Shown: piece after piece, positions 21,187 through 64,000 of the stretch
Layout of the letters: every line of letters begins with the position of its first letter
How positions within the stretch are numbered: the first letter of the stretch is position 1
Assembly (NCBI GenBank): GCA_009779195.1
Contig: WRET01000003.1
Coordinates: forward strand, 42,942 to 106,941
Reading direction: 5' to 3'
Source of the DNA: Micrococcales bacterium
Lineage (GTDB): Bacteria; Actinomycetota; Actinomycetes; Actinomycetales; Cellulomonadaceae
Length of the DNA: 64,000 nt
Position numbers and translations under genes: made by a program
Notes under the pieces: generated by a model
Told to the model about the DNA's origin: nothing
What the model saw: only the letters and a program-made list of their open reading frames with translations
Databases searched by the model: none

Positions 21187-21229
21187 CCTATCCTCACCTT
21201 CACCCTTTCGTGATGGCACTCTCACCGAG

Positions 21230-21289
21230 GTGCGAACAAGAACGCGTCGTGCGAACCAACACGTTCGCACGACGCAATCTTGTTCGCAC
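21230..21289. repeat. GTGCGAAC-quad repeat, full copy
   Basis: GTGCGAAC-11-GTGCGAAC-6-GTTCGCAC-11-GTTCGCAC; 27-bp arms with 2 mismatches. Confidence 0.85.
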
Positions 21290-21417
21290 GGCGCAAAAAA
21301 GGGGTTGGTGAGTGTGTGCTTCGTCCCAACCGGGAGCGCCGGGTCCGGGGGAAGAATCCTGGGTGCCGCACGGGGGCACCTTGGGGGGCTGGCCGTGGGG
21401 GGTTTAGGATGCTGCCC

Positions 21418-21945
21418 ATGAGCGCCGCACCCGAGGGGCCGCCCTACGGACAGCCCCCGGCCGAGGTGCTGCCGCACGCTGCCGGTGGTACCCAGGACGT
21501 TCCCGAGGTGCCGGCGTGGGGTACCCCCGAGGACACCCTGGGAGTTCCCACCGAACCTCTTCGGCCGATACGCAGCTCTCCTGGCTGGGACGAAGTGCGC
21601 AGCCGTAACTTGCTTCTCGCTTTCGACGGCCGGGTCTTGGAGATATTCGGAGAATTGTCCTGTGCCACCGAGGGCAAATTCAGCGATATTGAGTCGATGC
21701 GCTTCCACGTGGGGGTCCTCGCGCTGACGGTGCTGGAGGACGAGAAGACAGGCCGCTATCGGGTCGAGCTGGGTATCTCAAATGCTCGATATAGCTCACG
21801 CCGTGCGACGAACGAGCGGAAAGCTCCGGCGACTGGTAACCTCCTGTCTTTCAACGCCGAGGAGTGGGTCACCGTGGGTCCGTTCTTCTCCCGGGTCGCC
21901 GCTGCGGCCCTGCGTTGGGATGCCCGGCAAAACCGGGCTACCTAG
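21418..21945 (+). CDS. Hypothetical protein, possibly leaderless
   Basis: ORF MSAAPEGPPYGQPPAE...RATNERKAPATGNLLSFNAEEW...; TAGGAT-like -10 about 7 nt before ATG; stop codon lies in the MITE target TA. Confidence 0.55.
   Translation: MSAAPEGPPYGQPPAEVLPHAAGGTQDVPEVPAWGTPEDTLGVPTEPLRPIRSSPGWDEVRSRNLLLAFDGRVLEIFGELSCATEGKFSDIESMRFHVGVLALTVLEDEKTGRYRVELGISNARYSSRRATNERKAPATGNLLSFNAEEWVTVGPFFSRVAAAALRWDARQNRAT
21922..21938 (+). terminator. Small hairpin inside the 3' end of the hypothetical gene
   Basis: GCCCGG-caaaa-CCGGGC just before the stop codon; no T-tract. Confidence 0.3.
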
Positions 21946-22107
21946 TGTCCTGCGCCGGAAATTCGGTGGAGAAGTCGACGCCAGCCGCGGCACCTCGCGG
22001 CGTTGTCGTCAGTTGCGATAGCGCTGCTATCGCGCCTTCCTCCGCCTTGCGATGCACCACGTCTGACGCCGCCTTCTTATCCACCGAATTTCCGGCGCAG
22101 GACACTA
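21943..22107. mobile_element. 165-bp MITE, IS630/Tc1-mariner-like (TA target)
   Basis: 28-bp perfect terminal inverted repeats TAGTGTCCTGCGCCGGAAATTCGGTGGA (21943-21970 / 22080-22107), flanking TA, no transposase. Confidence 0.85.
21990..22056 (-). ncRNA. Candidate structured RNA core inside the MITE
   Basis: Minus strand: GCAUCGC-AA-GGCG-GAGGAAGGC-[GCGAUAGC agc GCUAUCGC]-AACUGACGACAA-CGCC-GCGAGGUGC. Confidence 0.45.
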
Positions 22108-22163
22108 GGCCGTGTTGCGACCCGGTGGCATCCTCCCACTCACCCTTTCGTGATGGCGTTCTT

Positions 22164-22171
22164 GTTCGCAC
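22164..22171. repeat. Partial GTGCGAAC-quad repeat (one unit plus shared flanks)
   Basis: Shares caccctttcgtgatggc and ttcttgttcgcacggcg-aaaa-ggggttgg flanks with the 21.2-kb copy. Confidence 0.55.
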
Positions 22172-22546
22172 GGCGTAAAAGGGGGTTGGGTTGGTGAGGC
22201 TCTGACGGCGCTGCTACGGGGTGTGGGGGGTCAAGGTGTTGACGGCGGCGATGACGCGCTGGAGGAGGGGGCCGACGGACGCCGGGAGGAGTGCCGTATG
22301 CGGGTACCGCAGACGGGGGCTGGTGGGAAATGGGCACAAGGCTCATGACCTCAGCGTAGAGCGCAGGTTGCGTGGGTGTTAGCGCAGGTGAGAAAGGGGA
22401 TCTGCTGCAACGGACGACGGTTGGTGTTGGTGGGTGGGATCAATGCCGGTTGCCGACCAGGCGACGCGGGTCGAGGCTAAGAGTCATGGGATGATACCTG
22501 GGCGGCGAGGTTGCCGGGCGGTCGCCGATGAAAGGGGAGGTCCGAC

Positions 22547-63713: not shown

Positions 63714-63783
63714 ACGATGTCGTTCAGAAATCACGAGATCGTTCACCGCTCTGAACGATCTCGTGATTTCTGAACGACATCGT
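63714..63783. repeat. Perfect 32-bp inverted repeat with 6-nt loop
   Basis: acgatgTCGTTCAgaaatcacgagaTCGTTCA-ccgctc-TGAACGAtctcgtgatttcTGAACGAcatcgt. Confidence 0.95.
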
Positions 63784-63859: not shown

Positions 63860-64000
63860 CTAGGGCGTGTCTCTTAACCCCCCGCACGCCGTGGCGCGCC
63901 CGGCACGCACGCTGGCGGCGTTGTCGTCGTCGGCAGCACCTCCAGTGCTGCTCTCCTCCTCCGCCTTGCCAGCGCACGCACCGGACACGCCACGCTCGCA
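63860..64000. mobile_element. Left end of an IS (possibly IS5-like) or MITE, truncated by the window
   Basis: CTAG then GGGCGTGTCTCTTAA terminal-repeat-like sequence, followed by an imperfect palindrome with the same core as the 22-kb MITE. Confidence 0.5.
63911..63973 (-). ncRNA. Candidate structured RNA core, second instance
   Basis: Minus strand: GCUGGC-AA-GGCG-GAGGAGGAGA-[GCAGCAC uggag GUGCUGC]-CGACGACGACAA-CGCC-GCCAGC. Confidence 0.45.

Follow-up and report, generated by a model that had tools for sequence, protein, structure and literature searches.

Bacterial MITEs such as the palindromic ERIC, RUP, BOX and Correia elements are short, non-coding and multi-copy, have inverted terminal repeats and target duplications, and are able to fold into RNA hairpins. 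Structured non-coding modules are also found in other mobile DNA, namely the omega-RNA/HEARO systems (IscB/TnpB), the IS110 elements with their bridge or seek RNA, and group II introns. The REP/BIME sequences mobilised by RAYT are strand-specific imperfect hairpins located between genes, and 4-bp YTAR targets are used by elements of the IS5 or IS701 families.

The elements analyzed here are MITEs by their form, and the new part is a covarying core that they share. Unlike in the ERIC, RUP, BOX and Correia elements, one internal core is common to families with different terminal inverted repeats (TIRs) in several phyla, and it shows strand-specific covariation and conserved internal loops. A structured non-coding module in mobile DNA is shared with omega-RNA/HEARO, IS110 RNA and group II introns, but no nuclease, recombinase or reverse transcriptase gene recurs alongside, the ends resemble those of DDE-type elements, and Rfam holds no match. 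The strand-specific imperfect hairpins between genes resemble REP/BIME, but the elements carry TIRs of approximately 20-30 bp, duplicate CTAG/YTAR and showed no GTAG-hairpin unit. The CTAG/YTAR target is shared with IS5 or IS701, but there is no DDE_5 (IS701-type) match in the source genome, and the one DDE_Tnp_1 IS that was inspected has different ends. No description of the motif or of such a MITE family was found in the open-access literature searched.

Two MITEs in the window carry the same core

The window, i.e. the whole stretch of 64,000 nucleotides that was analyzed, contains two of these elements, MITE-A and MITE-B (Table 1). MITE-A is approximately 168 bp long with CTAG copies at 21942-21945 and 22105-22108, the left of which supplies the TAG stop codon of an ORF at 21280-21945. 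The source genome has two more near-complete copies of it (93-99%) and five copies at contig edges. MITE-B looks incomplete because the end of the window is also the end of a draft contig (C3:42942-106941 of a contig of 106,941 bases), and complete copies of approximately 167 bp are present elsewhere in the genome. Read on the minus strand, the cores run from 22050 to 21999 in MITE-A and from 63969 to 63917 in MITE-B, with a layout of approximately 70 nt that can be written GC-AAGGCGGAGGA-(P2 hairpin)-CGACAACGC-N-GC. Beyond these two cores, the next match of model R2 in the window reached only E=2. The arms of MITE-A contain 50 paired positions, with 5 G.U pairs on the core strand, none on the other strand and 3 transversions; the arms of a complete MITE-B copy from the source genome contain 46, with 10, none and 1, respectively.

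Table 1 Features of the two MITEs in the window.
Feature	Position	Strand	Remarks
MITE-A	21942..22108	minus	terminal inverted repeats of 34 nt (97% complementary); CTAG at either end
Structured core of MITE-A	21989..22060	minus	model R2, 79.8 bits, E=1.5e-17
Conserved 5' internal-loop strand AAGGCGGAGGA of MITE-A core	22038..22048	minus	
Conserved 3' internal-loop strand GACGACAACGCC of MITE-A core	21999..22010	minus	
P2 hairpin GCGAUAGC-AGC-GCUAUCGC of MITE-A	22015..22033	minus	pairs covary strongly among homologues
MITE-B (TIR CTAGGGCGTGTCTCTTAA)	63860..64000	minus	truncated by contig end
Structured core of MITE-B	63907..63979	minus	model R2, 78.4 bits, E=3.3e-17

A first-pass annotation, made from sequence alone, had described one structured core inside two unrelated mobile elements, a MITE and an IS-like element at the right edge. 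Its coordinates and sequences for the cores held, and so did the stems P0 and P2 as it described them. The IS-like element did not hold; it is a MITE of approximately 167 bp cut by the contig end, and not an IS, since complete copies of that length exist elsewhere in the genome. The claim that the two elements are unrelated held in part, as their terminal repeats and inner arms differ, yet both belong to one set of CTAG/YTAR-inserted MITEs.

Other repeats lie close by. Directly adjoining MITE-A, CTAGGCCGTGTTGCGA (window 22105-22120) matches the terminal repeat of MITE family C and could be a remnant of that family or a nested insertion site. Two diverged direct repeats (CTTGTTCGCACGGCG..., 81-85% alike) at 21190-21314 and 22130-22196 flank the MITE-A region; together with further TTCGCACGACG-like copies in inverted orientation they represent another repeat family. 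At 63714-63783, 77 bp from MITE-B, a 6-nt loop separates the two halves of a perfect 32-bp inverted repeat (ACGATGTCGTTCAGAAATCACGAGATCGTTCA / complement).

The fold of the core is conserved and bound to one strand

The consensus from 31 diverse sequences consists, from the outside, of the P0 arm, GC pairs, AAG opposite one free base, and GCG/CGC; then of GA opposite GACAA (a tandem G.A with a CAA bulge), a G-C pair and a second tandem G.A; and at the tip of a variable, mostly paired position followed by the P2 hairpin. One Streptomyces class has Watson-Crick pairs in place of the second G.A tandem, and this region of locus L299 is a 15-bp helix.

It is clear that base pairing in the core is under selection and that the fold is conserved, on one strand. 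Double-changed cells numbered 148 where 51 were expected from shuffles, and the covariation score was 0.595 compared with 0.168 after shuffling and at most 0.11 in slid controls. When 100 alignments simulated on the ML tree were used as a phylogenetic null, 8 of the 22 pairs were found at E<=0.05, and the 155 double-changed cells compare with a maximum of 58 in any simulation. Columns 31-35 of P2, paired with columns 44-48, are at E<=0.05 against the simulated alignments. Six invariant pairs are uninformative on covariation in either direction, and at columns 5/76, a varying position, U.G occurs more often than any other pair.

Wobble pairs could be scored in 47 of 63 clusters of distinct elements, those with arms of sufficient quality. 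Arm mismatches in these 47 clusters form G.U pairs on the core strand in 135 cases and on the other strand in 27, and the core strand was favoured in 39 elements and the opposite strand in none. With RNA parameters, the core strand was also the more stable one in 62 of the 63 clusters (median difference 13.6 kcal/mol); with DNA parameters, it was so in 61 of 63 (difference 5.6). These asymmetries in wobble and stability tie the fold to one strand and argue against neutral palindrome correction, but leave undecided whether RNA or ssDNA is the folding molecule.

A search of Rfam 15 gave no core match above the gathering threshold, and a permissive search returned only low scores, from long-hairpin miRNA models far below threshold, and nothing credible. 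A standard k-turn was rejected by reasoning, the polarity of the bulge and the order of the G.A pairs being wrong.

The first-pass annotation had proposed that the core covaries and that its wobble pairs lie on one strand, and had matched it to no named RNA family, and all three points held: covariation in further copies is strong, also against the phylogenetic null, the wobble pairs are not split equally between the strands, and no family in Rfam matches at the gathering threshold. Its label of ncRNA keeps candidate status only, as a strand-specific ssDNA structure is not excluded and there are no transcription data.

One core, many terminal repeats

The first covariance model gave 54 matches in the source genome, i.e. 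at least 54 copies of the core, which excludes chance as the origin of the shared core. Judged by their terminal repeats the copies fall into at least six families (CTAGTGTCCTG, CTAGGGCGTGTCTC, CTAGGCCGTGTTRCG, CTAGTGGGGCGTARTCG, TATGGCRCTCCCAGAACAAG and CTAGTGTCGCGTGYACG), so the two elements of the window are not simple relatives with the same TIRs. The insertion target is CTAG/YTAR, and the direct flanks CTAG..CTAG and CTAA..CTAA represent the target duplication. Three families have one inner body in common while their outer approximately 30 bp differ, which means that terminal repeats have been swapped while the interior stayed constant. What looked like locus-specific palindromes around solo copies turned out to be more TIR families with one inner body, and this explanation was rejected.

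Some derivatives have lost the core and kept both terminal repeats: L063 (C5:17314) and L047 (C11:12224) in the source genome, and L503 from 3001, with H85 also core-less. Since such derivatives with intact TIRs exist, neither a single transposition nor persistence strictly depends on the core.

Distribution in other genomes

A pattern search of GTDB genomes returned at least 120 loci, the majority in Streptomyces and others in Kitasatospora, Nocardia, Gordonia, Nocardioides, Rathayibacter and Pseudonocardia. Outside Actinomycetota, matches were found in Lachnospiraceae, Blautia and Anaerobium, and on two beta-proteobacterial MAG contigs. Wide recurrence in actinobacterial mobile elements, as had been suggested from the window, thus held and extends beyond actinobacteria. 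The pattern fixes AGGCGGAGGA and CGACAACGCNGC, and the invariance of those bases is partly ascertainment; likewise most bases of AAGGCGGAGGA and GACGACAACGCC were fixed beforehand by the pattern used for collecting homologues. Model R2 recovered more divergent members, e.g. GCAAGGCGCGAGGAG...CGACGAGCAACGCAGC, with an extra C-G pair after the CAA bulge.

The distribution is patchy, with hits in 2 of 61 genomes of the genus (first covariance model), 11 of 297 genomes of the order (model R1) and, with model R2, 23 of the 399 genomes sampled from Actinomycetota, or 13 of 239 genera. As many as 37 copies are present in a single Streptomyces genome, and up to 54 per genome among the genomes examined; similar elements occur on 48 Streptomyces plasmids. 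None of the phage records carried the element; among 2.9 million viral contigs, 3 match the main pattern and one further contig matches a variant pattern. In three contigs of the viral collection (L510, L511 and L513) the core is bounded by TIRs of new kinds, e.g. TATAGTCRACRCACTTGA, which might point to hosts outside those examined.

Mobility and gene context

The elements have terminal inverted repeats, no transposase gene and many copies, and thus meet the criteria for MITEs. ORFs at the element belong to no recurring family except translations of the element itself, and blastp clustering of the ORFs within 2.5 kb of 130 loci revealed no recurrent family among neighbouring genes. No autonomous partner was found in TIR scans of the source genome, six Streptomyces-type genomes, G641, G651 and G048, which gave only single ends or element-length pairs separated by no more than a few hundred bp. 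Since MITEs often lack a known partner, the MITE form stands, and the mobiliser is not identified. An IS701 mobiliser was rejected on the missing DDE_5 match. No matching ends were found for the source genome's two DDE_Tnp_1 genes either: the IS at L300 has other ends, and no clear repeat pair was seen at L301.

Insertion is illustrated by two Streptomyces coelicoflavus-type plasmids that are 98.8% identical: in one the element sits exactly at the stop codon of fabG, and the other has a bare CTAG. The outer bases of the target duplication differ in this pair by one substitution per side, and there is also an extra upstream indel. The right end of the element supplies a stop codon in 54 of 138 cases and the left end in 24 of 138, as expected from the CTAG/YTAR target; the contrast between right and left is not a clean orientation test, the left arms being more variable in length.

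Elements of different families were observed just downstream of similar genes at L115, L187 and L204 (and L253 by clustering), three of them having an FKBP-type isomerase-like C-terminus before the element. This could reflect either a recurrent insertion site or ancient retention. Core elements with short arms were seen to abut stop codons in the Microbacteriaceae-like genome G211 (L279, L289, L293 and L295-L299) and in Rathayibacter (L175 and L214), at housekeeping-like genes that resemble guaA, nrdH, ccsB and transporter genes. L175 and L279 lie at the same gene, as do L214 and L289, and within each pair the arms have changed with the pairing kept.

Orientation relative to replication

Of 112 copies from six genomes, 77 have the core strand as the leading-strand template (77:35, p=9e-5). 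By genome the ratios are 14:2, 19:5, 25:12, 8:3, 7:9 and 4:4, so that two of the six show no bias. These genomes consist of one or few contigs each, and origins were placed by GC skew in G641, by gene direction in G746 and G748, and by assuming the middle of the linear chromosome in the other three. The p value is approximate because copies in one genome are kin. In three genomes the bias was 9:2 for copies with flanking genes in the direction of the core and 19:2 for those against it; gene direction was rejected as the cause, as the bias is alike for both. A possible cause is the loss of copies with the stronger hairpin on the lagging-strand template.

Discussion

The reading that we put forward, and consider as likely to be right as wrong, is that the core is a structured module not known before, probably an RNA, which moves about inside MITEs and re-arms itself with new ends; its transcription and function are inferred. 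On this reading the core is a strand-specific, conserved folded module, most likely RNA, that caps a long imperfect hairpin and alone stays constant throughout a superfamily of MITE-like elements that are non-autonomous, with transposases supplied in trans presumably acting on the terminal repeats. Upon transcription, a hypothetical factor, a widely conserved protein or RNP, would recognise the AAG/N and GA/GACAA internal loops; such recognition may help the element to persist or spread, and selection would keep the core for that reason. Copies with the stronger hairpin on the lagging-strand template would be lost, leaving an orientation bias. Three points favour RNA: U.G pairs are common, and in one column even prevail over all others; the two strands differ more in stability when RNA energies are used; and structured RNAs typically have internal loops of conserved sequence within a helix that covaries. 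Against this reading, no transcript, promoter or bound protein has been shown, and the orientation bias, absent from two of the six genomes, is not predicted by a pure RNA function. The core-less derivatives with intact TIRs also speak against it.

The core may instead act as ssDNA that folds on one strand in replication and is recognised by the mobilising machinery, resulting in oriented insertion, which remains a possibility. This would fit the replication-linked orientation, kept for both directions of the flanking genes, and the near symmetry of the TIRs, which makes the core the evident source of asymmetry; the one-sided wobble is compatible with G.T pairs in ssDNA as well, and the core strand is the stabler one with DNA parameters too. 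However, the better-folding strand is on the leading-strand template, whereas ssDNA is usually exposed on the lagging-strand template, no recognising enzyme was found, and differential loss of the stabler lagging-strand hairpin would yield an equal bias. It appears less likely that a 3'-end element such as a terminator or mRNA stabiliser, domesticated or merely carried, forms the core and renders insertion at stop codons harmless or useful. The coincidence of element ends with stop codons speaks for it, and so do the short-arm copies of G211 and Rathayibacter, whose orthologous arms differ yet pair. In these very copies, however, the strand whose fold is under selection is antisense to the gene that they abut, the CTAG/YTAR target preference already accounts for the stop-codon sites, and a plain terminator needs no sequence-conserved internal loop; nor was a U-tract seen.

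We regard it as highly improbable that the elements are ordinary MITE relics with a neutral core and an unselected fold, their arms being kept complementary by palindrome correction and recombination. Palindromes do correct themselves and no autonomous partner was found, but neutral palindromes should not show a 39-to-0 excess of strand-specific wobble, and neither internal loops conserved across phyla nor the replacement of G.A by Watson-Crick pairs would be expected. The wobble asymmetry and the covariation against both shuffles and the simulated null already disfavour this explanation.

A bolder reading is also conceivable, in which the selfish unit is the folded nucleic-acid module itself, undescribed so far and conserved across phyla. 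If so, the core would be retained while TIRs are swapped to exploit different transposases, and a strand-specific fold, in RNA or ssDNA, would couple mobility or survival to replication or transcription.

MITEs are generally viewed as passive IS debris and are defined by their terminal sequences. Here it is the folded interior that is conserved while the ends vary, and the conservation of this interior across Actinomycetota and Firmicutes (including some gut Firmicutes) implies a recognised structure in non-coding elements. The covariance model provides an annotation tool for a family that is absent from Rfam, and the finding makes it testable whether non-autonomous elements carry a functional RNA or ssDNA signal of their own.
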